This document shows positions 1-58,558 of a stretch of DNA of 64,000 nucleotides, piece by piece (the stretch's first letter is position 1; every line of letters begins with the position of its first letter). This DNA comes from Actinomycetota bacterium (GTDB lineage: Bacteria; Actinomycetota; Actinomycetes; S36-B12; UBA5976), in NCBI GenBank assembly GCA_009698575.1, contig WLPX01000001.1:252924-316923 (forward strand). Direction: 5' to 3'. The translations under genes and the position numbers were made by a program. The notes beneath the pieces are model-generated. The model worked only from the letters and a program-made list of their open reading frames with translations, was not told the DNA's origin and searched no databases.

Positions 1-231
1 ACCGTACCTGGCGGGATTAATGTCGCCGCCGCCTGCAAGCAAGACACCTTGGTAACCCTGAAGTCGCTGCTGCCAGTCACTTTCTGGCGCAGCCAACAGG
101 GTTACTGGATCAGCTCCCGCATCCCAGAGTGATTCCAGCAACGCTCGCGAACTGACGACTCCGGCATATCTAAGTGCCGAAGCCGAGTTTGTAAACCGCC
201 CTATTAGTGCGATTTTGGGACGTAACGACAT
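1..231 (-). CDS. Gamma-glutamyl-GABA hydrolase-like class I glutamine amidotransferase (partial, N-terminus only)
   Basis: The first 77 codons of a gene running off the left edge; ATG at 231. The N-terminus has an IALIGR strand, then a helix, then LLAGGGDINPARYG near residues 64-77. That GGGD-x-x-P-x-x-YG motif is diagnostic of the peptidase C26/PuuD family, which hydrolyses gamma-glutamyl amides (for example gamma-glutamyl-GABA in putrescine breakdown). The catalytic Cys and His/Glu lie outside the window, so activity cannot be confirmed. It is divergent from the aromatic operon starting at 333, with a 100-bp shared intergenic region. Family sure, substrate unknown. Confidence 0.8.
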   Translation of the reverse strand, partial: MSLRPKIALIGRFTNSASALRYAGVVSSRALLESLWDAGADPVTLLAAPESDWQQRLQGYQGVLLAGGGDINPARYG

Positions 232-332: not shown

Positions 333-1796
333 ATGACAATGGCAACAGTTGCTGGGGTTGAAGTTGATACTCGGCATTTCATCGGCGGTAAGCGGGTTGC
401 CTCCGATTCCACATTCGCGGATCATTCCCCAATAGATGGCACTTTTCTGGCGGACATTTCCCGCGGTGGAAAACGTGAAGTTGATTTAGCTGTTGCGGCC
501 GCAAAAGCTGCCTTTCCAATTTGGTCACAAATGTCGCCAGCTGAACGTGGCGCTATTTTAAATCGGGTCGCAGACATTATCGAGTCACGGATCGAAGACT
601 TAGCAATAGTTGAAACCACCGACAATGGCTCGCTGCTTCGATCACATCGTCGTGGTGTTATGCCCCGCGTTGCCATGAACTTTAGATTCTTTGCTGACTA
701 CGCGATGAATCAACTGAACTACCCAGACTTTGAAACGCGCGGACATACCAATCACGTAACTTGGGATCCAGCAGGTGTTACCGGAATCATCACGCCTTGG
801 AATGCGCCACTTATGCTCGCGTCTTGGCGAATCGGTCCAGCCCTTGCAGCTGGCGATACCGTCGTAGCAAAACCACCTGAGTGGGCACCGCTAACTGCTT
901 CCCTACTTGCAGACATAACTGTGGAGGCAGGTATGCCACCAGGGGTTTTCAATGTGGTTCAAGGTTTTGGCGAAGAAGCTGGCGCAGCCTTAACTGCGCA
1001 CCCAGATTTATCTCGCATTTCATTTACTGGTTCAGTACCGACCGCAAAACTTGTCGCTAAAGCAGCAGCCGAAAATCTTGTGCCATGTTCATTCGAACTT
1101 GGTGGCAAAAGTCCGCTCATCATCACTGACGATGCGGACTTAGATATCGCAGTCACTGTTGCCGTTGAGCAGTATGACAATGCTGGACAAGTTTGTTTGT
1201 CAGGTACTCGGTTCTTGGTGCAACGTGGAATTGCCGACAAGTTCAAAGCAGCATTTATCGAGCGAGCTAAGCAAATCAAACAGGGCGACCCGCGAGATGA
1301 AGCTACTGACATTGGGCCGCAAATTCATCCTGAACATTTTTCTCGCGTAAAGGGATTCGTTGATCGCGCAGTAGCCGAAGGTCAGACCGTAGTTTTGGGT
1401 GGCGGGCCTAATTCAGAGTTGGGCGGAAACTTCTTCTTGCCTACTTTGATTGATAATCCAACAGTTGGCAGCGAAATCGTAACGCAAGAAGTTTTTGGCC
1501 CAGTTCTATCTATGCAGCAATTCGATACTGATGCCGAAGCAATTGAAATGGCTAACGGAACAGAATTTGGATTAGCCGCAGTGGTTGTTTGTGGAAACAA
1601 AAAACGTGCCCAAGCAATTACTGACCGACTCGTCGCTGGCACGATTTGGGTTAACTGCTTCTTTGTACGCGATCTTGGTGCGCCATTTGGTGGTTCTAAG
1701 AAATCAGGTATTGGCCGTGAAGGCGGAATCTGGTCATTTGATTTTTATGCAGACGTAAAGAACACGGTCTTTGCGCCTAACGGTTGGAAGGAATAA
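333..1796 (+). CDS. HpaE-like aldehyde dehydrogenase (carboxymethyl-hydroxymuconate semialdehyde dehydrogenase family)
   Basis: A full-length NAD(P)-dependent aldehyde dehydrogenase of 487 aa. Visible residues: Asn157 in PWNAP, Lys180 in VAKPPE, the FTGS cofactor motif at 231-234, general base Glu255 in FELGGKS, and catalytic Cys288 in NAGQVC. The N-terminal third (AVAAAKAAFPIW, VETTDNG, PRVAMNFRFFADY) reads like HpaE, which oxidises the ring-cleavage semialdehyde of homoprotocatechuate to the dicarboxylate. The next two genes are HpaD-like and HpaG-like, supporting this role; betaine-aldehyde-type activity cannot be excluded from sequence. ATG at 333 follows AGGGGA; an in-frame ATG at 339 is an alternative. 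First gene of a five-gene operon. Confidence 0.82.
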   Translation: MTMATVAGVEVDTRHFIGGKRVASDSTFADHSPIDGTFLADISRGGKREVDLAVAAAKAAFPIWSQMSPAERGAILNRVADIIESRIEDLAIVETTDNGSLLRSHRRGVMPRVAMNFRFFADYAMNQLNYPDFETRGHTNHVTWDPAGVTGIITPWNAPLMLASWRIGPALAAGDTVVAKPPEWAPLTASLLADITVEAGMPPGVFNVVQGFGEEAGAALTAHPDLSRISFTGSVPTAKLVAKAAAENLVPCSFELGGKSPLIITDDADLDIAVTVAVEQYDNAGQVCLSGTRFLVQRGIADKFKAAFIERAKQIKQGDPRDEATDIGPQIHPEHFSRVKGFVDRAVAEGQTVVLGGGPNSELGGNFFLPTLIDNPTVGSEIVTQEVFGPVLSMQQFDTDAEAIEMANGTEFGLAAVVVCGNKKRAQAITDRLVAGTIWVNCFFVRDLGAPFGGSKKSGIGREGGIWSFDFYADVKNTVFAPNGWKE

Positions 1797-1799
1797 ATC

Positions 1800-2708
1800 A
1801 TGGGTGAAATTGTTGGAGCGGGCCTGTTGGCACATGTGCCGACCATTGTCTTGCCACTTGAGATTCGTAAGGAACTCAACAACGGCAAAGACTTCACGCT
1901 GGTCGCTGGTTTAGAACAACTTCGCAAAGACGTATTTGAGACTGTCGACTACGACACAGTCATAGTCTTTGATTCCCACTGGGCGACCACAGTTGAGTTC
2001 GTAGTGACCTCACATGATCGTCGGGAAGGTTTCTATACCAGCGAAGAACTACCGCGCGGAATGTCATCAGTACCTTTTGATTGGAAGGGCGATCCTGCGC
2101 TAGCCAAAGAAATCGCATCACTTGGCGAAAAGCATGGCACTTGGATTACTCCTATCGATAACCCACATTTGCCAACTTTCTATGCGACTTTGAATCTCTG
2201 GATGTACCTAGGTAAAGGTCTAAACAAGAACTGGATCAGTATCGGCATGTGCCAAACCGGTGATGACGAAGACAACTTACGGTTAGGTCGCGCAGTAGGT
2301 GAAGCAATTGCAAACTCGGATCGTAAAGTCTTGCTAATTGCTTCCGGTGCTTTGTCACATACTTTCTGGCCATTGCGTGAACTACGAAAGCATGAATCTG
2401 CAGATCTGAATTCAATTTATACGCCAGAAGCTCGGGCTGCCGATGAAGAACGTATCGCTTGGTACCTAGCAGGCGATCATGCCAAGGTACTCGACACTAT
2501 GGATAGCTTCCATAAGTACAAGCCAGAAGCACGCTACGGACACGGCATGATGATGCACGGCGCCCTTGGTGAAAAAGATTGCACAGCACCTGGTCGTCAA
2601 TATGGCGATTATGAAAACTCAATTGGAACCGGCCAAGTGCACATCTGGTTTGACCAACCCACAGGCGGATTTCCTGCGGTAAAGCATCCGGTAGTGTCAC
2701 GTGGCTGA
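1800..2708 (+). CDS. Class III (LigB-type) extradiol catechol dioxygenase, HpaD-like
   Basis: 302 aa, matching the length and architecture of E. coli HpaD (3,4-dihydroxyphenylacetate 2,3-dioxygenase). It would use non-haem Fe(II) and O2 to open a catechol ring next to the hydroxyls. Shared landmarks are His12 in AHVPT and His60 in FDSHWA (expected metal ligands), the FYTSEELPRGM block, His187 in SGALSH (expected acid/base), and Glu243 near the C-terminus as probable third ligand. It begins 3 nt after the aldehyde dehydrogenase stop, so the two are probably co-translated. The exact catechol cannot be read from sequence; homoprotocatechuate is the default. Confidence 0.82.
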   Translation: MGEIVGAGLLAHVPTIVLPLEIRKELNNGKDFTLVAGLEQLRKDVFETVDYDTVIVFDSHWATTVEFVVTSHDRREGFYTSEELPRGMSSVPFDWKGDPALAKEIASLGEKHGTWITPIDNPHLPTFYATLNLWMYLGKGLNKNWISIGMCQTGDDEDNLRLGRAVGEAIANSDRKVLLIASGALSHTFWPLRELRKHESADLNSIYTPEARAADEERIAWYLAGDHAKVLDTMDSFHKYKPEARYGHGMMMHGALGEKDCTAPGRQYGDYENSIGTGQVHIWFDQPTGGFPAVKHPVVSRG

Positions 2709-3579
2709 GTATCGTCGCATTCTGCTTGATGGCTTTGCAGTACAAACAATTCGCCATGGTGAAACTCTCGTTGCACCAGATGGCAGAGAAGTCGCAATTG
2801 CTAATGCAATTCACTTGCCGCCAAGTGAGCCGACAAAAATCATTGCGGTTCATTTGAATTACGACAGTCGCACCAAGGAGTTCATGACTAAACTTCCCGC
2901 GGCGCCAACGTACTTCCACAAGCCAATTACTGCTCTCAATAGCCACTTGGGATCAATCGTTCGGCCGCAAGGTTGTAAATGGTTGAACTACGAAGGCGAG
3001 ATCGTAATTGTGATTGGCAAAACTTGCCGCAACATCAGTCCAGCAGAGGCGGGCGATTACATCGCTGGCTACACCATTGGTAATGATTACGGATTACATG
3101 ACTTCCGAGATACCGATGCCGGTTCTATGTTGCGAGTAAAAGGCAGCGACACCTTGGCACCAGTCGGTCCTGGCTTGATAACCGACTGGGACTTCCGCGG
3201 AAAACAAATTCGCACTTTAGTTAATGGCGTTGTTAAACAAGATGACAACACCAGCAACATGGAATGGGACATGCATTACCTAGTGGCTGACATTGCGCGA
3301 ACCATCACGTTAGTTCCTGGCGACATTTTGTTCTCCGGAACGCCAGCTAACTCTCGCCCAGTGGAGCCTGGCGACGTGGTTGAAGTAGAAGTTGAAGGCC
3401 TTGGCAAATTGACTAACACAATTGTCACCGGCCCAACTGCAATCCGTACCGATGTCGGAGCGCAACCGACGGAAAGTGAAGAAGTGGTCTCCACCGCCAT
3501 GGGTGGCGACTGGGAGTTCCGCGGAATTAGAACTCCATCTAAAGATCTGTATCCATCAACTGTTGAGGAGAAGAAATGA
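2701..3579 (+). CDS. Fumarylacetoacetate hydrolase-family enzyme, HpaG-like isomerase/decarboxylase
   Basis: 292 aa with a C-terminal FAH fold. The divalent-metal site is visible as Glu98 and Glu100 in NYEGEIVIVIGK and Asp129 in IGNDYG. In homoprotocatechuate catabolism HpaG decarboxylates and isomerises the ring-opened triacid after HpaE, which fits its place as third gene. Other FAH members hydrolyse acylpyruvates. GTG start at 2701 overlaps the dioxygenase stop by 8 nt, implying translational coupling. The hydratase and aldolase that would finish the pathway (HpaH, HpaI) are not in the window. Confidence 0.78.
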   Translation: MAEYRRILLDGFAVQTIRHGETLVAPDGREVAIANAIHLPPSEPTKIIAVHLNYDSRTKEFMTKLPAAPTYFHKPITALNSHLGSIVRPQGCKWLNYEGEIVIVIGKTCRNISPAEAGDYIAGYTIGNDYGLHDFRDTDAGSMLRVKGSDTLAPVGPGLITDWDFRGKQIRTLVNGVVKQDDNTSNMEWDMHYLVADIARTITLVPGDILFSGTPANSRPVEPGDVVEVEVEGLGKLTNTIVTGPTAIRTDVGAQPTESEEVVSTAMGGDWEFRGIRTPSKDLYPSTVEEKK

Positions 3580-3767
3580 TAACCATCGATGTCGACATGG
3601 ATAAGTGCCAGCACTATGGCCAATGCGTGTTTGAAGCACCAGATATTTTTAAGTTGAATGACAACGACAAGCTTGAGTTTGTTGCTACCGCTGATGACAG
3701 TCGCAGAAGCGATGTTGAAAGCGCCGTGGATGTTTGCCCAATGCAGGCAATATCCATCGTTGAATAA
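3576..3767 (+). CDS. [3Fe-4S] ferredoxin, probable P450 redox partner
   Basis: A 63-aa small acidic electron carrier. The cluster motif is Cys11-x5-Cys17 with Cys54-Pro55. Tyr14 replaces the second cysteine that a [4Fe-4S] ferredoxin would have, so a [3Fe-4S] cluster is expected. This class typically donates electrons to actinobacterial cytochromes P450. ATG overlaps the upstream stop (ATGA), and the ferredoxin reductase follows 14 bp later. The only P450 in the window is 2.7 kb away on the other strand. Confidence 0.9.
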   Translation: MITIDVDMDKCQHYGQCVFEAPDIFKLNDNDKLEFVATADDSRRSDVESAVDVCPMQAISIVE

Positions 3768-3781
3768 CTGACACGTTATTT

Positions 3782-4987
3782 ATGTCAAAGTCAGTAGTTA
3801 TTGTTGGTGCTTCCATGGGCGGCTTGCGGGCAGCCGAAGCGCTGCGCAATAACGGGTTCGATGGCCAAATTGCGGTAATCGGTGAGGAAGTACACGCGCC
3901 TTATAACCGCCCACCACTATCAAAAGAAGTGCTGGCCAAGGAAGTTACTCATGAAGCTGTGGCTTTCAAGTTACGCGCTCAGGTTGAAGATGTCATTTGG
4001 AATCTTGGTGATCCAGCGACTTCGGTTGATTTAGAAAAGCAGGTTGTTACAACAGCCTCTGGCAAAACTTTTGAATATGACGGATTGGTGATTGCGTCCG
4101 GGTTGCGGCCACGGGTACTTGATCTACCAAATGGCAAAGTATCGGGTCGTCATACAGTGCGCACGCTAGATGATGCAATTGGATTGCGGGCTGCTTTAGT
4201 ACCTGGTGCCCAAGTCGTCGTAGCTGGCGCAGGATTTATTGGCTGTGAAGTTGCAGCTACTGCAAGAGGTTTGGGATGCGCAGTTACCAACGTCGCTATT
4301 GATAGTTACCCAATGATTCGCCCACTTGGCGAATTGCTTGCTGCCGAACTCCAGCGCAGACATGAATCCAAAGGTGTAAATTTTCGGTTGCAGCGTGGAA
4401 TCAAGGATTTGACCGGAACCGATTCGCTGTCTGGAGTAATTCTGGATGACGGGGATTTCTTAGAAGCCACGGTGTTGGTTGAAGCAATTAGTTCACACTG
4501 CAATGTTGAGTGGCTGGCAAATACCAATCTTGATATTTCTAATGGCGTGCTTACTGATTCAGCGCTTCGAGCTGTAACTACCGAAGGTCAGTCAGTCGAC
4601 GGAGTTTATGTAGTTGGCGACTTGGCTAGATTCGCCAATCCACTTTTTGATGATGAGGCTAGACGAATCGAGCATTGGAACATTCCTACCGAAACTGGAA
4701 AGCGAGTAGGTGCCGCATTGAGTGCTTACTTGGCAGAAGCGGATCACTTTGCAGAACTAGCTGCCCAAACTTTCACTCCATTGCCGACTTTTTGGTCAGA
4801 TCAATATGAAATGAAAATTCAAGGCTTTGGCATGCCCGGTCTCGCAGATCGATACGAATTAGTTGATGGCGAATTATCCGATGAACTTGTTATGGCTTAC
4901 TTCCGAAATGATGTGTTAATCGGTGTTGTTGGTATTGGAATGACTGCAGAAGTTATGAAATACCGCAAGCAACTTCTCGGCACCTAG
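3782..4987 (+). CDS. FAD-dependent ferredoxin reductase (NAD(P)H:ferredoxin/rubredoxin reductase family)
   Basis: 401 aa with two dinucleotide-binding motifs: an FAD-binding segment at residues 5-14 (VVIVGASMGG, second glycine altered) and NAD(P)H-binding GAGFIG at 149-154. A C-terminal VYVVGDLA segment contacts FAD. It would pass electrons from NAD(P)H to the ferredoxin encoded just upstream and on to a P450 or other oxygenase. Last gene of the operon: its TAG shares bases with the TAG of the convergent asparaginase gene, the stops overlapping within CTAG at 4984-4987. Confidence 0.88.
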   Translation: MSKSVVIVGASMGGLRAAEALRNNGFDGQIAVIGEEVHAPYNRPPLSKEVLAKEVTHEAVAFKLRAQVEDVIWNLGDPATSVDLEKQVVTTASGKTFEYDGLVIASGLRPRVLDLPNGKVSGRHTVRTLDDAIGLRAALVPGAQVVVAGAGFIGCEVAATARGLGCAVTNVAIDSYPMIRPLGELLAAELQRRHESKGVNFRLQRGIKDLTGTDSLSGVILDDGDFLEATVLVEAISSHCNVEWLANTNLDISNGVLTDSALRAVTTEGQSVDGVYVVGDLARFANPLFDDEARRIEHWNIPTETGKRVGAALSAYLAEADHFAELAAQTFTPLPTFWSDQYEMKIQGFGMPGLADRYELVDGELSDELVMAYFRNDVLIGVVGIGMTAEVMKYRKQLLGT

Positions 4988-6477: not shown

Positions 6478-7656
6478 TTACCAGTTTGCATTGAGAGCTG
6501 TAGGGGCTCGAAATTCCCAACCAGCAAACTCAACTTTGTCACTGTCAGGCAACGCGATTTCTGGCAAACCTTCTACGAGAATCTGAAGTGAAATTCGCTC
6601 AACGCCTCGCGCGAAAGCATGTCCCGCGCAAAAATGTGGACCATAACCAAAGGATGCATTGGATTGGCGCGGTCGATCCATGTCGAACGTGTCTGGGTTA
6701 GTAAATACCGTTTCATCTCTTGAGGCACTTGCGACAACAGCTGCGACTGCTGAACCCGCAGGGATAGTTACTCCGCCTAACTCCACGTCCTGAGTAGTCT
6801 GACGAGTCTGGGTACCGATCGGTGCGATCCAGCGCAAACCTTCTTGAATCACGTCATCCCAAAGTTCCGGGTTCAAGCGGAGTCGATCGAATGCACCTGG
6901 AATATTCGCTAGCGCGAAAAAGGTAGCTGCTGCGCCATGACCAGGTTCTTGCATACCACCCAAAATCGTAAGTTTAAGAGTTGGCAAAATATATTCGGCG
7001 CTACGTTTCTCGCCATCTGGCATTCCAGAATGCAACATGTGCGAAATCGTTGAATCATCTGGAGTAGCAAGTAGCCGTTCCATAATCGGTAGCAACTCAT
7101 CATTCATTTCAGCTTCTACTTCATCTGAAATCTTTTGCTTTTCTGGGTCGCGCTCAAAGTTTGTGGCACCCATGGCTAAGCCATGAAACCAGTGCTGCAA
7201 TGTGTCGGCGCTTAAATGACCTAGGCCTAGGACCGCACCTAAACTCAAAACCGAAATTGGTTCAAAATATGACGCCACTAATTCCCGACGATCATTTGAA
7301 ACAATTTCATCAAGTTGGTTCATTGCAATTGGAGTAACCAAATCATCGATGTAAGTGGAGACCATGCGTGGCCGATATTTGCTATCAAGACTCTTGCGCA
7401 TATTTAGGTGCTCGTCACCATCCATAGTCAGCAGACTTTTGCCTTTAAAGGAGCGATCTAGGGTGGAATCGGTAACTTGAGCGGTGAACAAATCTGGATG
7501 AGTTGTTACATATTCAACATCTTCGGCTCGGGTAACCAACCATAAGTTAACTGCTGGAACGTGAGCGACCGGCGCTTCTTTTCGTAATCTGGCATAAATT
7601 GGGTACGGATCGCGATCAAGATCCGCAACTGTTATTGATTCAGCAAACGTAGTCAC
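6478..7656 (-). CDS. Cytochrome P450, GcoA/CYP255A-like candidate aryl O-demethylase
   Basis: 392-aa soluble P450. Landmarks: haem loop FGYGPHFCAG with ligand Cys343, ExxR at Glu272-Arg275, and helix I carrying GGMQEPGHG at 233-241 in place of the usual acid-alcohol pair. That EPGHG block, the segments YIDDLVTPIA, PDDSTISHMLHSGMP and EGLRWIAPI, and the terminal GWEFRAPTAL match Amycolatopsis GcoA as I recall it. GcoA O-demethylates guaiacol to catechol, releasing formaldehyde. Two of the three pocket phenylalanines are kept (Phe70 for F75, Phe382 for F395), but Ala164 replaces F169. GTG start with GAAAGG six bases upstream; an imperfect inverted repeat (7661-7681) covers this SD. No GcoB-type reductase lies nearby; the ferredoxin and reductase at 3576-4987 are the plausible partners. 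Confidence 0.8.
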   Translation of the reverse strand: MTTFAESITVADLDRDPYPIYARLRKEAPVAHVPAVNLWLVTRAEDVEYVTTHPDLFTAQVTDSTLDRSFKGKSLLTMDGDEHLNMRKSLDSKYRPRMVSTYIDDLVTPIAMNQLDEIVSNDRRELVASYFEPISVLSLGAVLGLGHLSADTLQHWFHGLAMGATNFERDPEKQKISDEVEAEMNDELLPIMERLLATPDDSTISHMLHSGMPDGEKRSAEYILPTLKLTILGGMQEPGHGAAATFFALANIPGAFDRLRLNPELWDDVIQEGLRWIAPIGTQTRQTTQDVELGGVTIPAGSAVAAVVASASRDETVFTNPDTFDMDRPRQSNASFGYGPHFCAGHAFARGVERISLQILVEGLPEIALPDSDKVEFAGWEFRAPTALNANW

Positions 7657-19404: not shown

Positions 19405-20256
19405 CTATCCGAAGCGACCGGAAATGTAATCTTCAGTTCGGGAATCACTCGGGTTTGTAAATATTTTTGATGTTTGATCCATCTCAACTAAATGTCCATA
19501 CCGTTGACCGGCTTCATCAACGCGGGCGCTAAAGAATGCGGTGCGGTCAGATACTCGAGCTGCCTGCTGCATATTGTGAGTAACAATTACTACTGTGTAA
19601 TCATTTACTAACTCCAACATCAAATCTTCGATTAAGGATGTCGCAATTGGATCCAGCGAAGCACATGGCTCATCCATTAACAAGATGTCTGGTGATGTTG
19701 CGATTGCGCGCGCAATACATAAACGCTGTTGCTGTCCGCCAGAAAGTGCGAATCCACTTTGGTCCAGCTTGTCCTTAACCTCAGACCACAAGCCAGCTTT
19801 ATTGAGAGCGTGCTCTACTAAATCTGCAGTTGAGGACTTATCCAATTTCATGCCTGTGACTCTTGGACCATAGGCAACATTGTCAAAAATCGATTTTGGA
19901 AATGGATTCGGTTTCTGAAATACCATACCAACGCGGCGCCGAACTTCAATTGGATCCACAGTTGAGGCATACAAATCCTGCCCACGGTAATCAATTACTC
20001 CAGTGACTCTCGCGCTCGGAACTAAATCGTTAGTTCGGTTTAAGCAGCGCAAGACTGTTGATTTACCGCAACCCGACGGTCCGATAAATGCCGTAATTTG
20101 ATTAGCACCAACATCGAGGGAGATGTCCCGTACGGCGTGGAAGTTTCCGTAGTAAACATCAAGGTTTCGAAGCTCCATGATTGGGTGCACGGTTTCGCCA
20201 CGAGTAGATGCACCAAGGTGCATGCTTCGACTTAGGCCCTGGGGTTCTGATGTCAT
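19405..20256 (-). CDS. pstB: Phosphate ABC transporter ATPase (system 1)
   Basis: 283 aa. Walker [10 protein letters not shown], signature LSGGQQQR, Walker B ILLMDEP followed by the D-loop CASLDP, and switch His in IVTHNM. Hydrolyses ATP to drive phosphate uptake by PstA/PstC. ATG 20256 is chosen because AGGAG lies five bases upstream; the frame could extend to 20271. Final gene of pstS-pstC-pstA-pstB. A second paralogue lies at 53642. Confidence 0.96.
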
Positions 20257-20264
20257 ATTTTCTC

Positions 20265-21149
20265 CTACCAACGCTTTGCAAACTTGTTACGAATGAAAAT
20301 TGCTACACCATTCATACTTAACAAAATAACGAGTAATAGCATGCTTGTTGCTGCGGCTAGTTGTTTGAACTCATCCTGGGCAGCACTAGTCCAGCTGAAA
20401 ATCTGAATTGGCATGGTGGTAAATCCGGCAAACAAACCATTTGGATCATAGGTTATAAAAACTAGAGCACCGAGAAGCAATAGCGGTGCTGCTTCACCAA
20501 TTGCACGCGAAACGGCCAGGATGGTTCCAGTGGCTATACCAGGAATCGCAGCGGGCAGGGTTTGCTTAGTTACGGTTTGAACTTCAGTCGCCCCTAATGC
20601 AAGTGAGCCATCTCGGATTTCTTGTGGCACAGCACGTAATGCCTCTCGAGTAGTCAGAATGACTACTGGCAAAATTAGAAGCGCTAGAGCTAATGAACCG
20701 CCAATTACTACGTTCTTGTTTTTCAAACCAAGCAAGGTAAGGATGCCAAGCGTCAACATTCCATAAAGAATTGCTGGTACAGCGGCCAAGTTCTGAATAT
20801 TCAATTCGATGAGTTTGTTGTACCACTTGGTGCGGTCTGCAAATTCTTCTAAGTAAACAGCAGCTGCAATTCCGATCGGAATTGCCATAAATGCGGTAAC
20901 CGTAACAACGAAAAGCGAACCTAAGATTGCTGCCCTAGCTCCAGCGTCTGCCGGAGTGGTGTTGTTGTAATCAGTAAAGAGACGCATGTCGTATCGGCCC
21001 ATACCATTCATGGCAGTCGTTACTAACAAAATTATTAGGAATAGAAATGCTACAAAAAGGCTGAGCCAGAGTAATCCCAAGAACATAATGGACTTAAAGT
21101 TGCGCTCGTGGTTCTTGCCTTCGATTGACCAATTTGTTGCAGTTGTCAT
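20265..21149 (-). CDS. pstA: Phosphate ABC transporter permease PstA (system 1)
   Basis: 294 aa with about six membrane helices and the permease EAA-like loop around [22 protein letters not shown] that docks on PstB. The N-terminal helix and [19 protein letters not shown] extracytoplasmic segment are standard for PstA. Its ATG shares a base with the pstC stop at 21149. Forms the channel with PstC. Confidence 0.94.
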
Positions 21150-22084
21150 TAGTAAGCCTCTCGATATCGGCGGACTAATCGAATACTTATGAAATTAATT
21201 ATTAAAGTACTCATGAAAAGCAAGAGGCCGACAGCAAATAATGTGTCGTACTCAAGAGATCCCACACGTGAATCTCCCAGAGCTGCATTTGCGATGAAAC
21301 CAGTCATAGTTTGGGCGCCTTCAAGCGGATTACTCGAAATGTTTGGCTTATTTCCAGCGGCAAGTGCAACGATCATGGTTTCACCCACTGCTCGAGAAAT
21401 TCCGAGTACTACGGCTGCAGCAATTCCAGAAAACGCAGCTGGAAATACAACTCGTAATGTCGTTTGCATTTTGTTTGCACCAAGTGCAAAAGATCCTTGA
21501 CGCATTGCAAGTGGAACTGCCGAAAGTGCATCTTCAGAGAGTGAAGCTACGGTTGGAATGATCATTACACCCATTACTAAACCTGCAGACAGCACGCTAA
21601 ATGTTCCAACATCTAGTCCCATCCAATCTTTGAGCACTACGCGTGTAACAAACTCAATGGCAAAGAAACCATAGACAACGGTTGGAATGCCAGCCAGCAA
21701 TTCAACTACTGGCTTCAATCGACGTCGTGTTTTATCACTTGCATACTCCGATAGATACATCGCCGACCCAAGGCCAAATGGAACTGCCACAATTAATGCG
21801 ATTGCGGTGGTCCAAAGTGTGCCAACTATGAGAGGCACCACGCCAAAGCTGGCTGGTTTAAATCGAGGTGCCCAGCGAGTTCCAGTTAGAAAATCCATAA
21901 CTGGAACTTGGCGAAAGAATTCAAGTGCGGGAGCTAGCAAGGACCAAACAATGCCAATTGTGATCAAAACTGAAAATGCAGATGCAGCAAAAAGCGTGCC
22001 GCGAATAACGCGTTCACCGATTCGAAGTGAGGAACTTCGAAGTGAAAAATCTTCCATTTTCACCGAACTGCTCATTTCGCTCAT
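21149..22084 (-). CDS. pstC: Phosphate ABC transporter permease PstC (system 1)
   Basis: 311 aa, about six membrane helices. Typical PstC features are MDFLTGTRWAPRF in the first external loop, LAGIPTVVYGFFAIEF, and the cytoplasmic coupling loop LGANKMQTTLRVVFPAAFSGI. Located between the pstS-proximal hairpin and pstA. Several Met codons near the N-terminus leave the precise start open by a few residues. Confidence 0.94.
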   Translation of the reverse strand: MSEMSSSVKMEDFSLRSSSLRIGERVIRGTLFAASAFSVLITIGIVWSLLAPALEFFRQVPVMDFLTGTRWAPRFKPASFGVVPLIVGTLWTTAIALIVAVPFGLGSAMYLSEYASDKTRRRLKPVVELLAGIPTVVYGFFAIEFVTRVVLKDWMGLDVGTFSVLSAGLVMGVMIIPTVASLSEDALSAVPLAMRQGSFALGANKMQTTLRVVFPAAFSGIAAAVVLGISRAVGETMIVALAAGNKPNISSNPLEGAQTMTGFIANAALGDSRVGSLEYDTLFAVGLLLFMSTLIINFISIRLVRRYREAY

Positions 22085-22145
22085 TTCCTGAGATCAACGC
22101 TTTCTGGAATTCGGGGAACTACTAAATAGGTTATCGGACACGCAA

Positions 22146-22177
22146 CTGGCCTGGCAGGACTATCCCCGCCAGGCCAG
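22146..22177. terminator. Perfect 10-bp hairpin between pstS and pstC
   Basis: CTGGCCTGGC and GCCAGGCCAG form a perfect stem with a 12-nt loop, 13 bp after the pstS stop. No U-tract follows on the minus strand. Most likely a stabilising or attenuating hairpin that keeps the binding-protein message more abundant than that of the permeases. Confidence 0.6.
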
Positions 22178-22190
22178 AATTTAGTGCGAA

Positions 22191-23147
22191 TTACTTAAGG
22201 CCAGCTACTGCTGTTTGGGCAGATGTCTTCTGGTCTGCACTCAACGGTACGAAAAGTGCCTTTGTAGTGATGGCATCATCATTAGCGACAAAGTACTCAG
22301 CGAAGGCCAAAACTTCAGCGCGTGCTGCTGCTGCGTTGCTTACATAGATGAACAATGGGCGGGAAAGTGGTGCGTAGGTTCCAGCCTGCGCGGTATCGAT
22401 TGATGGAGCAACACAACCAGCGCCGCCATCAACTTCAACAGCAGTTAGCTTGTCCATGTTCTCTTCGAAGTAAGAAAGTCCGAAGTAACCAAGAGCACCC
22501 TTTGCACCTTCAACACCCTGAACTGTGACGTTGTCATCTTCAGTTGGGTTGTAGTCAGTGCGGGATGCACCTTCTTCGCCATTGATTGCTTTGGTGAAGT
22601 AGTCGAATGTTCCGGAGTCAGTTCCAGCGCCATAAAGATCAAGTGGCACATCTGGGAAACCCGCACGAATTTGAGACCATGAAGTAACAGTGCCTTCGGC
22701 AGCTGGTTCCCACATCTTCTTTAACTCATCTACGGTCAAGCAAGTCGCCCAATCGTTTTCCTTGTTTACAACAATTGTTAGTGCATCATTGGCTACAACG
22801 ATTTCAGTAAATTCGATTCCTGCTGCAGCACATTCTGCGGCTTCTTCGTCCTTAATTGAACGGGAGGCATTTGATATGTCCGTTTCACCGGCGCAGAATT
22901 TCTTGAATCCACCACCAGTTCCTGAAGTACCTACCGAAACGTTAACGCTTGGATTTTCAGCTTTGAAAAGTTCGCCAGCTGCAGCTGCAAGAGGGGCAAC
23001 AGTTGATGAACCATCAATGCGAATTTCAGATGAACTAGCGGCAGGTGCTGAAGAAGCACCGTCAGCTGAATTTGTGCCACCACAGGCGGCTAGAAGTAAT
23101 GCGGCAGGTATTACAACTGCTGCTACTTTCAGGTTAAAACGAGGCAT
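22191..23147 (-). CDS. pstS: Phosphate-binding lipoprotein PstS (system 1)
   Basis: 318 aa from ATG 23147 (AAAGGAAAAAGG upstream; a longer frame reaches 23168). Signal peptide with lipobox LLAAC, lipidated Cys22, then a Ser/Ala linker. The periplasmic-binding fold shows [35 protein letters not shown] and SGTFDYF, the loops that hold phosphate. Extracellular receptor anchored to the membrane. First gene of operon 1, preceded by a PHO-box-like repeat. Confidence 0.95.
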
Positions 23148-23222
23148 TTGCCTTTTTCCTTTCGGCATGAGAACTTCTCACTAATCCACAAATTATTGGG
23201 ATTCAGCAAACTAACACTTACT

Positions 23223-51297: not shown

Positions 51298-52416
51298 CTA
51301 AGAAGTTGGCTCCGGCGTAGCCGCGTCTGTTGCATCTACAGCCGGTTCTTCAGTTGGCATTTCAGTAGGTAGTGCAGGCTCAGGCTCACCCGATGGTGGT
51401 ACTGACGGTTCAGGTAATCCCGCTGAAACGATACCCAACAATTCAATTCGAATGTTTTCCGGTGTCGCGTTGCGCCCCACTCCTACTAATTCTCCTTGGG
51501 AGTCCAAGCGCAAAATGTATTTGGCGAAAGCCTTAGCTGCAAGTTCATTCTGACCCTTGCAAATACTTACCGTAGTTTGCGCAATGCCGTGCCATGGGAT
51601 TGCTGCTTCGTCTGTTCCTTCGGAAGCAGTCGGTTCAATCGTTGGGTCAATTTCAGCTACGTAATCATCGCCAGTATTAGTCAAAACCATCTGAGTACCG
51701 CCGGAGTCAACACCAGCAGATTCTGCGTATAGCGATTGATCACTAGAAGGAAGTAGGAATTCGGCAAGGCTCAATGAATTGTTTTGTGCGTATGCTAAAG
51801 ACGCAATTCCAATTGATCCATCAGTAGCCAGTTCCTCTAAGTTCTGTTCTGCAGCCGCAGTTATTGGCTGCCAAGTACCGCCCGTCTCAGTTGCCATCCA
51901 AAGATTTAGTGCTTCAACTTCGGTTTTTGATCCTGATTGGATGACCTGCATCGGAAGGTCTGGGAATTCAATATCTGGATTCAAGTCTGTAATGTCAGCA
52001 TCCTGCCAGTTTGAAATTTCTCCAAGTAAGACCTTGTTTAGAACCTCTGGTGATAGCACGATGTTTTCGACACCCTCGAGAGGTGTTGCGACTACAACGC
52101 CGTCCAGCCCTACTGGGATTTTTAAGCTCGAACTACAAAATGGAGTCGCTTCTGAGGCGCCGGAAATCACTATGTCCGAAGTGTTTCCATACTCAGTAAT
52201 TTGAAGTTTTGAGTTAGCACAATTGGTTGTATAGCTTTCTGACCAAATGTTTAGTAGTTCTTCGAATTCGGGCTGACTAGAAATGGTCAACGGCCCATCA
52301 ACACATGTCACGTATTTATCAGCCAAAGCAGCCTTAACTTCTGGCGGCATTGGAGGTGTGCAGCCAACTAATCCAGCTGCCAGCAATAAGCTGCCTACTA
52401 CTTTGACCAATTTCAT
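51298..52416 (-). CDS. PstS-like lipoprotein (third phosphate-binding-protein paralogue)
   Basis: 372 aa. Lipobox GLVGC with Cys19; a periplasmic-binding fold with SGASEATPFC, LGEISNWQDADI and VIQSGSKTEVEALNLW, positions where PstS binds phosphate (SGT becomes SGS). Pro/Glu-rich tail (residues about 340-372) is unusual. More divergent from the other two PstS proteins, so it may bind another ligand or act as an accessory sensor. Downstream of pstS2. Confidence 0.75.
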   Translation of the reverse strand: MKLVKVVGSLLLAAGLVGCTPPMPPEVKAALADKYVTCVDGPLTISSQPEFEELLNIWSESYTTNCANSKLQITEYGNTSDIVISGASEATPFCSSSLKIPVGLDGVVVATPLEGVENIVLSPEVLNKVLLGEISNWQDADITDLNPDIEFPDLPMQVIQSGSKTEVEALNLWMATETGGTWQPITAAAEQNLEELATDGSIGIASLAYAQNNSLSLAEFLLPSSDQSLYAESAGVDSGGTQMVLTNTGDDYVAEIDPTIEPTASEGTDEAAIPWHGIAQTTVSICKGQNELAAKAFAKYILRLDSQGELVGVGRNATPENIRIELLGIVSAGLPEPSVPPSGEPEPALPTEMPTEEPAVDATDAATPEPTS

Positions 52417-52443
52417 TTAAGTTATCTTTCGCTAGCCGTTAAT

Positions 52444-52483
52444 GTCAGTAGCCCGCAAGGCAATTGCCAAGCGGGCTAATGAC
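52444..52483. terminator. Hairpin between pstS2 and the PstS-like lipoprotein gene
   Basis: TAGCCCGC/GCGGGCTA (8 bp) with outer GTCA/TGAC; the loop itself contains GGCAATTGCC. No U-tract. Lies just after the pstS2 stop and probably limits readthrough or protects the pstS2 message. Confidence 0.55.
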
Positions 52484-52490
52484 GGATTAA

Positions 52491-53522
52491 TTAGAATCCA
52501 GAACGTGCGTTCGATAGTGCGCGCTGGTATAGCTTGCTCTTTGAGCTAAAGCCAGCGTATCCTGCTGCTGGCTTCTTGCCACAAGTTACAACTGCATACT
52601 CAGCGAAGTCACTTACGACTCCCGCTTTAGCGGCATCATAAGTTCCAGGTGAGGCTCCCTTTGGAATCACTAAGTAAGTAAGGATGCTTAAGTTGTAGCC
52701 GCCTGTAACTTTCTTTTTGAAATTGATTGTTACGATTCCATTCTTACCTGGATCAGCTTGAGCAGAAATAAATTTCTTTGCTGCTGCTGCAGTTGGCTTT
52801 ACGTAAGCACCCTTGGCATTCTTAAGGGAAACATACTTCAATTTCACCGTTACATCTGCTAGATCTGCATAGCCGATAGCACCTGGGGTACTCGCAATAG
52901 TGGATACCATCACGGCACTGGTGCTTGCAAGCGCTCCCTTAGCGCCATCCCAGTTCTTGTTGGCATTGCTTGCTGTAAAGCCGCCGACTGTTTGGTTTAG
53001 GTAATCTTGCACGTTAGCTGTGGTTCCAGAGCCATCGCGGTAAACGACAGTAATGTTGCCCTTTAGCTTTCCCTTAGGTGCTGACTTGTTCAGCTTCTTG
53101 ATAGCTGGGTCATCCCACTTGGTAATTGTGCCCTTGAAAATCGCAGCAAGAGTTTTTGGATCTAGCTTTAGAGTCTTTACACCTGAAACGTTAAATCCGA
53201 TGGCAACTGGGCCAGAAGTAACTGGAACATAAGTAAAGGCTTGGGAAGGAGCTGAACCTGATGCCCATGGAACATCGGTAGCAGCGAATTCAACCGCGCC
53301 TGCCTTGTACTGAGAAAGCCCAGTTGAAGAGCCTGTTGATGTGTAAGCAACTGTATTTCCAGTTGCAGAGTTGAATTCTCGTGCACACTTTTGCATAAAG
53401 TTGTTGGCAAATGAGGAACCTTTACCATTTACTGTTTCGCCGGCTTGCGCTGCAGGTGCTGCAACAAGTACGGAAGCTGCCATTGCAAGCACAGCCACAG
53501 ATTTAGTAATAATGCTTCGCAT
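52491..53522 (-). CDS. Phosphate-binding protein PstS (system 2), secreted type
   Basis: 343 aa. Signal peptide ends PAAQA with predicted cleavage after residue 27, and there is no lipobox Cys, so it should be released or wall-associated. Phosphate loops GKGSSFANNF, TSTGSSTGLSQY and DGSGTTANV are intact. GGAG precedes ATG 53522. Third kind of PstS in the window by N-terminal processing. Confidence 0.9.
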   Translation of the reverse strand: MRSIITKSVAVLAMAASVLVAAPAAQAGETVNGKGSSFANNFMQKCAREFNSATGNTVAYTSTGSSTGLSQYKAGAVEFAATDVPWASGSAPSQAFTYVPVTSGPVAIGFNVSGVKTLKLDPKTLAAIFKGTITKWDDPAIKKLNKSAPKGKLKGNITVVYRDGSGTTANVQDYLNQTVGGFTASNANKNWDGAKGALASTSAVMVSTIASTPGAIGYADLADVTVKLKYVSLKNAKGAYVKPTAAAAKKFISAQADPGKNGIVTINFKKKVTGGYNLSILTYLVIPKGASPGTYDAAKAGVVSDFAEYAVVTCGKKPAAGYAGFSSKSKLYQRALSNARSGF

Positions 53523-53620
53523 TATTTCTCCTTCTTGATGTCACCGGCGTTTCCGGTATGAGAAGAGTTAATTACTCGGTTCTGAATGCAAGTTGTAGCG
53601 AAACCTAATTGCTAATGATT

Positions 53621-53642
53621 TTTGGGTAAACAGTTGGTGTAC
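53621..53642 (-). promoter_or_regulatory. PHO-box-like direct repeat upstream of pstS2
   Basis: Minus-strand units GTACACCAACT and GTTTACCCAAA, adjacent 11-mers, each 6 of 7 to GTTCACC. They start at the last base of the pstB2 stop and lie 99 bp before pstS2. Would give pstS2 its own phosphate-starvation promoter. Confidence 0.45.
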
Positions 53643-54484
53643 TACCCAAATCGACCATTTACGTAATCTTCTGTGCGTGGATCATTCGGGGATGAAAACA
53701 GCGCCTCGGTATTTCCAAACTCAACGACGTAACCTGGCTGGTTTTCTTCAGCCAAGAAAAATGCAGTTTGATCCGATACTCGTTGGGCTTGTTGCATGTT
53801 GTGCGTGACAATTACCACAGTCATGTCCGATGACAACTCGCGGATGGTTTCTTCGATGCGACGAGTGGAGCCCGGATCCAAGGCTGAACATGGCTCATCC
53901 ATCAAAAGCACATCTGGTGCAAGCGCAAGTGATCGTGCAATGCAAAGGCGTTGCTGTTGGCCGCCAGATAACGATCCAGCTGGAGCATCTAGCCGATCCT
54001 TTACTTCATTCCAGATGCTTGCCCGAGTTAGACATTTTTCAACCAATTCATTTTCGTCCCTGGTGCGCCGATTACTAAGTCGCAGCCCGGCTAGTACATT
54101 TCCTTTAATTGTCATGGTGGGGAATGGATTTGGCTTTTGAAACACCATCCCAATTTTTAGGCGTACTGAAACTGGATCTATATCAGCATCATAAATATTC
54201 TTGCCGTCAAGATATATTTCTCCAGCTAACCCTGCTCCAGGAATAAGTTCATGCATGCGATTAAGCGTTCTGATGAAAGATGACTTACCGCAGCCCGATG
54301 GACCAATCAGCGCCGTAACCGAATTTGTGGGGAACTTCAACGAGACATCCGAAAGCACATGGCGTTCTTTAAACCACACGTTTATGTCCCTAGCTTCGAG
54401 ATGATATTGCTCATCAAGAGTTCGCAACCTTTTAGTCTCCACTTGAGTAGTCATCTCCATACTTCCTTCGATAGTTGTGGTCAT
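53642..54484 (-). CDS. Phosphate ABC transporter ATPase (system 2)
   Basis: 280 aa. Walker [10 protein letters not shown], signature LSGGQQQR, Walker B VLLMDEP, D-loop CSALDPGS, His in [10 protein letters not shown]. Paralogue of the PstB at 19405 (both end NGRFG/SGRFG). ATGA overlap with pstA2. Confidence 0.95.
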
Positions 54485-55539
54485 TTCTTTCCTACTTCTC
54501 TACTTCCAAAAATTCGTGCAAGTGTGAATAAAATTCCGATAACAACCAACAGCACAAGTGCAGCGCCCCAAGCTCGTTGTCTTGAAGTGTCATAACCCGC
54601 ACCGAGGAATGAGTAGATATATGTGGTCAGCGTTGTCATGCCATCGCTAGTTGGATTTATATTCGTTTCATTGGAAATATTGGTTGTCAGAATCAATGGA
54701 GCCGTCTCGCCAAATACCCGGGCTAATCCCAGCAAAACAGCAGTGATAAGCCCAGTTTTTGCAGCAGGTAAAATCACTTGGAAGAACGCCCTGCGTCGGG
54801 GAGCACCAAGTGCTAACGCGGCGGCCCGCAACTCACCTGGTACCAGTTTTAATACCTCTTCGCTCATGCGAGCGATCGTTGGCAACATTAGAAGTAATAG
54901 TGATGCGGCACCTAACCAACCAACTGGTTTAACTAATCCAGATGCAATAAATACCGTATAGATAAAAAGTCCGGCAACCACAGATGGTAGGCCACTCATA
55001 GCTTGGGAAAAAAATCGGACTGGGCCTCGGAACCGACCATCAGTTTCAGTTAGATAAACTGCGACCCCGATTCCTATCGGAACGGTTGCCAAAGTAACTA
55101 AACCAACGACTATAAGACTTCCAAGGATCGCGTGCCCGACGCCACCATATTCAAGTGAAGTTGTCGGCGTTATGTAAACACTGTTTTGATAAAGAAAATG
55201 TGGACTTAACGCCTTCAATCCCCAACTTATTACCGAAAAGAGGACGGACCCCAGCAAAATACTGATTGCCACGGTTGAAAAGATCACACCTACGTTAAGG
55301 AATGCATCCGCAATCCCGCGCTTACCTCTTAATATCAGCGCTGCTAGGGCACTAAATAGTAACTGCAGCGGAAGGAAAATAAGAAGAAGCGTAACGGCAC
55401 CAGGTAGCTCCAGAAGAAAACGCACAATTACTGCTATGAGGCTTGGAGCTACCGATGCAATCGCAATTAAAGCAACGTTCTTTCGATTTCGATTTTTCCA
55501 AGGTGTCGCATTTGTGGGCCTGACGGCAATTTGTGTCAT
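54481..55539 (-). CDS. Phosphate ABC transporter permease PstA (system 2)
   Basis: 352 aa, longer than PstA1 by a hydrophobic N-terminal extension with two extra helices (residues about 20-70). The coupling loop [21 protein letters not shown] and [13 protein letters not shown] are permease signatures. ATG shares a base with the pstC2 stop. Confidence 0.93.
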
Positions 55540-56501
55540 TACGATGCCATTCGCTTTTCAGACCTTTGGACAATTGCAGTTGCAAGCATGTTTACAATTA
55601 AGGTAAACACGAACAATACGACGCCAGCGGCCATTAGGGCCCTTAGTTCGACTGGCGTGGCTTCACCAAACCTAGAAATAATGAGGGACGCAATCGAGCC
55701 GCCACGAGGTTCCAAAATTGAATAGAAGTTAGTCTCGAACAGTAAATTAAGCACATAGTAAATTGCAATTGTTTCACCAAGTGCGCGTCCAAGACCGAGA
55801 AGTATGCCACCCAGAATTCCGCTCCTGGCAGTGGGGATCACAACTCTACGAAGTGAGCTAAATGATGTACCACCTAATGCAAAGGCAGCTGCAATTAACT
55901 CTTTGTCGACTCGGCTCATCACTTCACGAGTTACAGAAGTAATGATTGGGATGACCATGATGGCAACTACAAATCCTGCTATGAATGGAGACCTGAAGGC
56001 ATTGGGTTCATCGTTTGCAAAAATAGGAATAAAGCCCAGATGTTTTGTAAGTAACTCAGACCACCCAGTTGCAACTGGAGTGAGCACTAACAATCCCCAC
56101 ATGGCAATTAAAATCGAAGGCAGTGCTGCGAGTAAGTCAATAATTGAAATCGCAACTTTTGCGAATATGCCTTTAGCCATAAATTGAATAAAGTAAGCCG
56201 TCGCAATCGAAACCGGAACAGCAATGACTAGACCAAGTGCCGATATCAAAAATGATCCATAAAGCATGGGAAATATTTGAAAAGTTGGAGTTTCGCTCGC
56301 TGAATCCCAGATTGACCCGGTCACAAATTTTAAACCTTGTTGCTGAAATGTGGTCCAAGAACCATTGAGCAAAAAGGCAACAATCATCAGCACCAGTAGC
56401 AAGGATAAAGCCGCGGCAAGAGATGCCCCGCCAAAGAATACGCGATCTGCATCCTTGGGTTTGTAGCTCTTTAAATCAATGCGCGATTGAGTTTTACTCA
56501 C
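55539..56501 (-). CDS. Phosphate ABC transporter permease PstC (system 2)
   Basis: 320 aa with about six helices. LAALPSILIAMWGLLV and ALGGTSFSSLRRVVIPTARSGI are PstC signatures. GTG start at 56501. First permease gene after regX3, with a PHO-box-like repeat in the 74-bp gap. Confidence 0.93.
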   Translation of the reverse strand: MSKTQSRIDLKSYKPKDADRVFFGGASLAAALSLLLVLMIVAFLLNGSWTTFQQQGLKFVTGSIWDSASETPTFQIFPMLYGSFLISALGLVIAVPVSIATAYFIQFMAKGIFAKVAISIIDLLAALPSILIAMWGLLVLTPVATGWSELLTKHLGFIPIFANDEPNAFRSPFIAGFVVAIMVIPIITSVTREVMSRVDKELIAAAFALGGTSFSSLRRVVIPTARSGILGGILLGLGRALGETIAIYYVLNLLFETNFYSILEPRGGSIASLIISRFGEATPVELRALMAAGVVLFVFTLIVNMLATAIVQRSEKRMAS

Positions 56502-56540
56502 CTCAACAGATTAGAAAGCCAAGGGATATAGCACGTGCAA

Positions 56541-56562
56541 ACTAGGTAAACACCGAGTGAAC
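56541..56562 (-). promoter_or_regulatory. PHO-box-like direct repeat between regX3 and pstC2
   Basis: Minus-strand units GTTCACTCGGT and GTTTACCTAGT, adjacent 11-mers, the best pair in the window. Located 40 bp before pstC2, within the short gap after regX3. Suggests a phosphate-responsive promoter for pstCAB2. Confidence 0.55.
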
Positions 56563-56575
56563 TGCTCGATAACTT

Positions 56576-57256
56576 TTAGGCTTCGAAGCGGTAACCCAAG
56601 CCACGAACTGTCGTTAGATAGACCGGATTTGCTGGATCTGGTTCAATTTTTGAGCGAATTCTCTTGATGTGAACATCGAGAGTCTTTCCATCGCCAACAT
56701 AGTTTGAGCCCCAGACTCGATCCATTAGCTGTCCGCGCGTCAAGACTCGTCCGGAATTACGCATTAACAATTCCAACAATTCAAATTCCTTAAGCGGCAT
56801 AGCAACAGCTTGTCCGTTGACTGAAAGTGCATGGCGCTCAACATCCATTCGAACTGGTCCAACTTCAACTGCTCCAACCGAGTCAATTTCGATTTCCCCA
56901 CCACGCCGAAGCACCGCCTTAATACGAGCAAGTAACTCTCTCGTAGAAAAAGGTTTTGTCACATAATCGTCTGCGCCTAGTTCAAGGCCGACGACCTTAT
57001 CGATTTCAGTATCTTTAGCAGTCAACATGATTACTGGCGTGTTTGATTTGGATCGGATGTATTTACAGACTTCGGTGCCTGATACTTCCGGAAGCATTAA
57101 GTCAAGCAAAACTAAATCTGGATTTTTGGAATCAAATAACTTCATGCCTTCGGCGCCGTTTGGTGCCAAGATCACATCAAAGCCTTCACGAGAAAGCATG
57201 AACTGCAGCGCATCGCGGAATGACTCTTCATCTTCGATGACCAGAACACGTGTCAT
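56576..57256 (-). CDS. regX3: RegX3/PhoB-type response regulator
   Basis: 226 aa. Receiver with phosphorylated Asp52 in LVLLDLMLP and KPFS Lys, plus OmpR winged helix (MPLKEFELLELLMRNSGRVLTRGQLM, TVRGLGYRF). Phosphate-starvation activator; predicted to bind the PHO-box-like repeats. Overlaps senX3 by 4 nt. Directly upstream of pstC2. Confidence 0.92.
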   Translation of the reverse strand: MTRVLVIEDEESFRDALQFMLSREGFDVILAPNGAEGMKLFDSKNPDLVLLDLMLPEVSGTEVCKYIRSKSNTPVIMLTAKDTEIDKVVGLELGADDYVTKPFSTRELLARIKAVLRRGGEIEIDSVGAVEVGPVRMDVERHALSVNGQAVAMPLKEFELLELLMRNSGRVLTRGQLMDRVWGSNYVGDGKTLDVHIKRIRSKIEPDPANPVYLTTVRGLGYRFEA

Positions 57257-58377
57257 TTACCTGTAACCTCCGTTGGGGTGCCGGCACCATTTAGGTACAC
57301 GGGAAAACGTAATGTAAATGTCGAACCTTGACCTACTTGCGACCAAACAACGCAATCGCCACCATGGTTTGCGCAAACATGTTTAACGATTGCTAGACCT
57401 AAGCCGGTACCACCAGTATCACGAGACCTGGCTGGGTCAACTCTATAGAAACGTTCAAAAATACGATTTAGATCTGCCTCAGGAATACCAGGGCCTTGAT
57501 CAGTAACTGAAATTTCAATTACGTCATCGTTTAGGCGAGCACCAACACCGACTCGGGTAGATTCTGGCGAATACTTAATGGCATTTGACAACAAATTATT
57601 TAATGCCACGTTTAGCTGACCTTCGTCGCCGAATATTCGTCCCACATTATTTACATCGTCCGCAACAACAACTTCAATGGATTTTTGCTCAGCAGCAATC
57701 TTTGTGGCATCAACTGCCTCATGGATGATGCTCGCAACATCAACTGGCGCAGAATTTCGCAGGGGTGCATCACTTTGCACTTGGGACAAGGCAACTAAAT
57801 CTGAAATCATGGCAGTTAATCGCTTCACTTCAATTTGCATCCGAGAAGTGAAATGGCGCACTTGTTCAATGTCGGTGTCTGCCGCTTGCACTGCCTCAGC
57901 TAACAGTGAAAGTGCACCAACTGGGGTCTTGAGTTCGTGGGAAACGTTCGCAACGAAATCACGACGCACATCATTTAGTCGACGCTCTTCGCTTAAGTCC
58001 TGTGCGATCAGCAAACTTAGTTCTTCATCAATCGGTGAAATTTGAACTCGGGCTTCCCATTCGCCAAGGCGAGAGCCATTTCGCTTAATTACTGCGTCTC
58101 GGCTTTGAGTCTTACTCAGGCGATGAACCTCGCGATTTAGCGCCCGTAATTCAACTGGGGCAATGCGTTCTAAGGAAATCAATCCCATGGCTACGCAGTT
58201 TGCACTTGCTGCTAAAACTCGATCGGCTGAATCTACGATTGCAGCTGCATCAGGAAGGACATCGAGAATTTGGCTCAACGCTTCCACTCGATCAGCCTGA
58301 CTTTGCGCAGCTTCAGTAGCGCCAGCCTTTGGCCGACCTGGCGATCTACGATTTAGCATGGCTGCACCAAGCACCAA
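57253..58377 (-). CDS. senX3: SenX3-type sensor kinase lacking the membrane anchor
   Basis: At most 374 aa. PAS-like region (residues about 30-125), HisKA with FVANVSHELKTPVGALS, and HATPase_c with NLLSNAIKYS, DQGPGIP and GTGLGLAIVKH. The reading frame is closed by an in-frame TAG just before the TTG start at 58377, and only MVLGAAML is hydrophobic. Mycobacterial SenX3 has two membrane helices, absent here. Start may also be GTG 58374 or ATG 58359. Confidence 0.9.
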   Translation of the reverse strand: MVLGAAMLNRRSPGRPKAGATEAAQSQADRVEALSQILDVLPDAAAIVDSADRVLAASANCVAMGLISLERIAPVELRALNREVHRLSKTQSRDAVIKRNGSRLGEWEARVQISPIDEELSLLIAQDLSEERRLNDVRRDFVANVSHELKTPVGALSLLAEAVQAADTDIEQVRHFTSRMQIEVKRLTAMISDLVALSQVQSDAPLRNSAPVDVASIIHEAVDATKIAAEQKSIEVVVADDVNNVGRIFGDEGQLNVALNNLLSNAIKYSPESTRVGVGARLNDDVIEISVTDQGPGIPEADLNRIFERFYRVDPARSRDTGGTGLGLAIVKHVCANHGGDCVVWSQVGQGSTFTLRFPVYLNGAGTPTEVTGK

Positions 58378-58558
58378 TCTCTAGCCATTCCGAATCTGTT
58401 CACCTTCTAAGGATAGGTAGATTTGGGGTTAGACATCTCACGTCCAGCCTTACTTCAGCAACTGTTCATCTAAAAGCCAAACTATGTTTGCCCGCACTTT
58501 CCCTAGTGTTTTTATGGCGAAAATCCAGGATTAGGGTCATCGGTATTAGACTCGTTTT

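Follow-up and report, generated by a model that had tools for sequence, protein, structure and literature searches.

A GcoA-related cytochrome P450 outside the GcoA clade and its linkage to genes of a likely aromatic-amine pathway

The 64,000-nucleotide stretch of DNA analysed here (the window) carries a soluble bacterial cytochrome P450, hereafter P450A, which by sequence comparison is a relative of GcoA and SyoA outside the GcoA clade. Its gene company likely represents a pathway from an aromatic amine to HpaD-like ring cleavage, the substrate class being a predicted one, and we rate the chances as about even that P450A, as a class-I P450, acts on an aromatic of the phenethylamine type ahead of extradiol cleavage, most likely via aryl O-demethylation. 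The residue at position 394 (GcoA numbering) tracks the gene neighbourhood better than the residue at position 169. Neither the P450 superfamily nor the GcoA fold nor meta-cleavage is new. No description of the P450A group, of its partner genes or of its gene company seems to exist in the searchable literature, and a literature search on 3-methoxytyramine, homovanillate and Nanopelagicales P450s returned nothing specific.

The P450A gene, its fold and its family

6478..7656, minus strand: GcoA-related cytochrome P450 (P450A), 392 aa, GTG start, without internal stop
6628..6630, minus strand: codon of the heme ligand Cys343, equivalent to GcoA C356

The P450A gene and a D-aminoacyl-tRNA deacylase gene are convergent (tail to tail), and a ygfZ-like gene precedes P450A at a gap of about 70 bases. 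The GcoA-like P450 proposed in the earlier note was borne out, and the four blocks on which the note had relied (PDDS-x-ISH, GMP-x-G, helix I EPGHG and FRxPT) were all read directly in the protein as PDDSTISH (199-206), GMPDG (211-215), EPGHG (237-241) and FRAPT (382-386). The P450 superfamily pattern FGxGxHxCxG is present as FGYGPHFCAG, with heme Cys343, and so is ExxR, whose E272 and R275 are invariant in 48 sequences.

The best phmmer matches of P450A were 9ia1 (E 5.9e-90, the top sequence score at 305 bits), GcoA (5NCB, 6.5e-84) and SyoA (8u09, 1.3e-82), and the next family after the GcoA-type chains, 6g71, fell to 177 bits. The AlphaFold model, built from 48 sequences of its own group, has a mean pLDDT of 95.6, and Foldseek placed it on GcoA with a TM of 0.95 and an rmsd of 1.9 A, on SyoA with 0.90-0.92 and on CYP1232A24 with 0.89. 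These scores indicate that the resemblance of P450A to GcoA is real and far above chance.

With GcoA (CYP255A, Amycolatopsis), P450A shares the fold, the EPGHG I-helix, F75 and F395 and the short soluble form, but the identity is 39.9%, F169 is replaced by Ala and Gly394 by Glu, the F-G loop is seven residues shorter, W293 is missing, a ferredoxin and a reductase replace GcoB, and the pathway neighbours are others. SyoA (8U09/8U19/8U1I) resembles P450A in its fold and in the Gly before position 169, but is 36-38% identical, carries Ile at 169 and possesses a long F-G segment. The Rhodococcus GcoA-like P450 9ia1 (the plasmid P450 of strain PD04) is 39.8% identical to P450A and 66% identical to GcoA, with which it groups at full support, and it is linked to a GcoB-like reductase. 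Members of a CYP subfamily usually share at least about 55% identity, and the threshold for a CYP family is about 40%. At 40% to both GcoA and 9ia1, P450A falls outside the CYP255A subfamily by identity, and its 39.9% to GcoA is borderline for the CYP255 family.

In a rooted maximum-likelihood tree of 55 sequences, with distant P450s as the root and SyoA left out, the GcoA clade (100/100) excluded P450A, which fell within a separate group carrying Glu at position 394 (99/96). More Glu-394 sequences branch deeper than GcoA, some of the deep supports being weak (87/24, 86/61), so with this root the GcoA type would be a derived offshoot. Of 43 genomes in the GTDB family of the source organism, only 6 carry the P450, and these all belong to a single genus.

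Neighbouring genes and electron transfer

1..231, minus strand: start of a gamma-glutamyl-GABA-hydrolase-like amidotransferase gene, which extends left of the window
333..1796, plus strand: aldehyde dehydrogenase, HpaE-like (518 bits, equivalog cut-off 638)
1800..2708, plus strand: LigB-fold extradiol dioxygenase, HpaD-like (128.7 bits, cut-off 316)
2701..3579, plus strand: fumarylacetoacetate-hydrolase (FAH) family protein, HpaG-C-like
3576..3767, plus strand: ferredoxin, 63 aa, type C-x5-C...CP (PF13459, Pfam model)
3782..4987, plus strand: FAD ferredoxin reductase (Pyr_redox_2 and Reductase_C, domain matches)

A plus-strand run of aldehyde dehydrogenase, extradiol dioxygenase, FAH protein, ferredoxin and ferredoxin reductase genes lies to the left of P450A. 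Further left, outside the window, locus L009 holds genes encoding an APC permease, two GS-like gamma-glutamyl ligases, three class-I amidotransferases, two P450s that share 41%, an acyl-CoA dehydrogenase, an MppR-like acetoacetate-decarboxylase-family protein and a MarR regulator. One of these P450s (L009:17088-18338) is CYP125-like. A duplicated module of GS-like gamma-glutamyl ligase, amidotransferase and CYP125-like P450, together with the MppR-like protein, was observed at L009:8259-18338.

The HpaE-, HpaD- and HpaG-like enzymes and the MarR regulator resemble the hpa (4-hydroxyphenylacetate/homoprotocatechuate) meta-cleavage pathway, from which this set differs by its extra P450s, gamma-glutamyl ligases and MppR-like protein. 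All three enzymes lie under the curated equivalog cut-offs, the dioxygenase for instance with its 128.7 bits against the 315.95 bits of the HpaD model TIGR02298, so homoprotocatechuate itself is not proven. The pairs of GS-like ligase and amidotransferase hydrolase recall the PuuA/PuuD-type gamma-glutamyl amine route, but P450s stand in the place of the PuuB oxidase and the substrate is probably aromatic.

The ferredoxin (MITIDVDMDKCQHYGQCVFEAP...CPMQAI) was too short to appear in the open reading frame list; its start overlaps the stop of the FAH gene (ATGA), and a second similar ferredoxin is encoded at L009:13883-14074. While CYP255A enzymes have the three-domain GcoB as partner, P450A has the nearby ferredoxin and ferredoxin reductase instead, and these two would be its electron donors. 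In the source genome (92% complete) a GcoB homologue was not found, the weak matches being unrelated oxidoreductases (E of at least 2.3e-6). The Fer2 match at C1:350421 was rejected as a GcoB-type partner, as it is a ferric-reductase-like protein.

Eighty homologous loci were read. The genes linked with P450A encode the aldehyde dehydrogenase, the extradiol dioxygenase, the FAH protein, the acetoacetate-decarboxylase/MppR-like protein, the GS-like ligase, amidotransferases, the APC permease, the MarR regulator and the CYP125-like P450. This linkage recurs in Nanopelagicales, Dongia and other Alphaproteobacteria, Blastococcus, Streptomyces and Thermoleophilia, and is kept in another actinobacterial class, where the P450 identity is down to 39%. 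Within the source genus, the P450 stands apart from the amine genes, after a ygfZ-fur run. Annotated Rhizobium plasmids show the order APC permease, aldehyde dehydrogenase, P450, flavin reductase, 4-hydroxyphenylacetate 3-hydroxylase and class-III aminotransferases, with hpaD and hpaE near the P450 in the one Rhizobium record read far enough; rhizobial loci also hold a phosphotransferase and class-III PLP pair. Four MAG contigs titled Bifidobacterium breve (L020, L031, L034 and L080) carry P450A at 61-92% identity and are apparently mislabelled.

Other gene sets were recognised from translations. Two pst-like phosphate transport sets are present in the window (19405-23168 and 51298-59206), the latter with PhoB/PhoR- and PhoU-like genes. 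Elsewhere in the source genome, C30:14000-26000 (L019) holds corrinoid methyl-transfer genes, a RACo-like activator and NuoE/F-like genes; these corrinoid methyl-transfer genes occur in an apparently aerobic small-genome actinobacterium.

Pocket positions 169 and 394

7447..7449, minus strand: Phe70 codon (GcoA F75; MAFFT)
7165..7167, minus strand: Ala164 codon (position of GcoA F169; phmmer and MAFFT)
6808..6810, minus strand: Gln283 codon (opposite A295 in phmmer, T296 in MAFFT)
6514..6516, minus strand: Glu381 codon (position of GcoA G394, clade-marking, adjoining F395; MAFFT, tree and tally)
6511..6513, minus strand: Phe382 codon (GcoA F395; MAFFT)

GcoA numbering was verified on the known residues F75, I81, V241, L244, G245, I292, A295, T296, C356 and F395. 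F75, F169 and F395 form the aromatic triad of GcoA, two of whose members, F169 and F395, act as a gate for water (PMC9219061). The correspondence of Phe70, Ala164 and Phe382 to this triad, as first noted from the sequence, was the same in the phmmer and MAFFT alignments, and Leu229 aligned with V241. The placement of Gln283 opposite A295 held in phmmer and failed in MAFFT, where a one-residue deletion at W293 sets Thr282 against A295 and Gln283 against T296. Directly after Ala164, P450A lacks seven GcoA residues and its aromatic Phe167 occupies the position of GcoA Ala172, so the F-to-A difference at Ala164 does not stand alone.

Machovina and colleagues described position 169 as highly variable in CYP255A and found Ala in most of 482 homologues (PMC6628648). 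Among 90 Glu-394 sequences, Ala was found in 80, Leu in 5, Val and Thr in 2 each and Gly in 1, and in the P450A group the pathway neighbourhood was unchanged whichever of these residues was present. The published survey and this tally together rule out that Ala164 is a rare natural change. SyoA, which demethylates syringol in nature and prefers it as substrate (PMC13101465), has Ile at this position. With Ala in most of CYP255A and Ile in SyoA, residue 169 does not mark syringol enzymes.

The gene context was tallied for the 81 Glu-394 loci that offered 10 kb of DNA or more and for nine GcoA-like loci in which position 394 holds a different residue, an amine module being a ligase, amidotransferase, APC permease or class-III aminotransferase; the loci are non-independent (many are from Mesorhizobium) and the marker proteins were drawn from the Glu-394 group itself. 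The amine module was present in 59 of the 81 Glu-394 loci and hpa-type genes in 53 (both in 48, neither in 17), and the amine module was present in none of the nine others. Formaldehyde-handling genes were found in four of these nine, versus one of the 81. GcoA types have Gly at 394 together with GcoB, and a Rhizobium/Sinorhizobium/Agrobacterium group has Arg, beside a protocatechuate/gallate 4,5-pathway aldolase and formaldehyde genes. This pattern suggests that residue 394 may sense substrate charge. The Arg-394 P450s on rhizobial plasmids (L104, L110 and L111), which have a 2Fe-2S ferredoxin, FdR, CHA aldolase and, to a varying extent, formaldehyde genes as neighbours, are candidate O-demethylases for aromatic acids. 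Mesorhizobium sp. RMAD-H1 carries a second, divergent GcoA-like P450 with Val at 394 and its own FdR and 2Fe-2S ferredoxin (L069:16054-18600).

Proposed reaction and alternative readings

The substrate of P450A would be an aromatic primary amine, most likely of the phenethylamine type, for example 3-methoxytyramine or its acid homovanillate. The amine would be imported via the APC permease and deaminated via gamma-glutamylation in the source genome, or via class-III aminotransferases in rhizobia. Electrons are predicted to pass from NADH to the FAD reductase, the small ferredoxin and P450A, which would oxidise the group that blocks the free catechol, most likely by aryl O-demethylation on the analogy of GcoA, SyoA and AgcA. 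The HpaD-like dioxygenase would then open the catechol, followed by the HpaE-like dehydrogenase, the FAH protein and the MppR-like enzyme.

Within the same pathway, it is possible, though rather unlikely, that P450A is a hydroxylase (ring ortho- or para-, or benzylic on the amine) which makes the phenol or catechol. No HpaB-type phenol hydroxylase was found in the source genome (92% complete), so the catechol must be made by something else, and the rhizobial phosphotransferase and class-III PLP pair could handle a beta-hydroxyamine. The near absence of formaldehyde genes from the Glu-394 loci also points to a hydroxylase, and, with no mycothiol-dependent formaldehyde dehydrogenase above cut-off in the same genome, weakens O-demethylation in particular. 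However, every biochemically characterised close relative (GcoA, SyoA and AgcA) is an O-demethylase, and in Rhizobium, whose loci pair P450A with an HpaB-like hydroxylase, this reading would mean that ring ortho-hydroxylation is provided twice.

The earlier note had taken Ala164 as the sign of a natural wide-pocket O-demethylase for syringol or other S-lignin monomers, as engineered GcoA F169A turns over syringol (PMC6628648) and F75 and F395 are retained in P450A. This is very improbable given the residue pattern at 169, the Phe167 and shorter F-G loop that adjoin Ala164, the Glu381 beside Phe382 and the amine-type neighbours; near P450A, no pyrogallol/gallate or other S-lignin pathway genes were recognised. 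Action on bulkier phenols, which the note also raised, is possible. A general GcoA-like guaiacol O-demethylase that feeds catechol into meta-cleavage would agree with the GcoA fold and with the extradiol dioxygenase and dehydrogenase close by, but it is highly unlikely, since the dioxygenase is of the LigB/HpaD type without a catechol dioxygenase among its matches, the conserved amine genes would be left unexplained, and GcoB and formaldehyde genes are missing.

Going beyond the phenethylamine reading of P450A, we propose, as an unlikely but broader view, an undescribed P450-dependent aromatic-amine pathway in Actinobacteria and Alphaproteobacteria, in which the P450A group would be the older one, GcoA and SyoA a derived offshoot, and Glu, Arg or Gly at 394 would select amine, acid or neutral substrates.

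The analysis removes a false lead, as Ala at 169 is no marker of natural syringol enzymes, and puts in its place a lead that can be tested: the P450 cluster is conserved, its candidate substrates are clear, its electron-transfer gene set is full, and Glu381 stands out as a specific residue. If true, lignin-enzyme engineers would learn which pocket position sets substrate charge, and an aromatic-amine route would be added to freshwater actinobacteria and root-nodule rhizobia.
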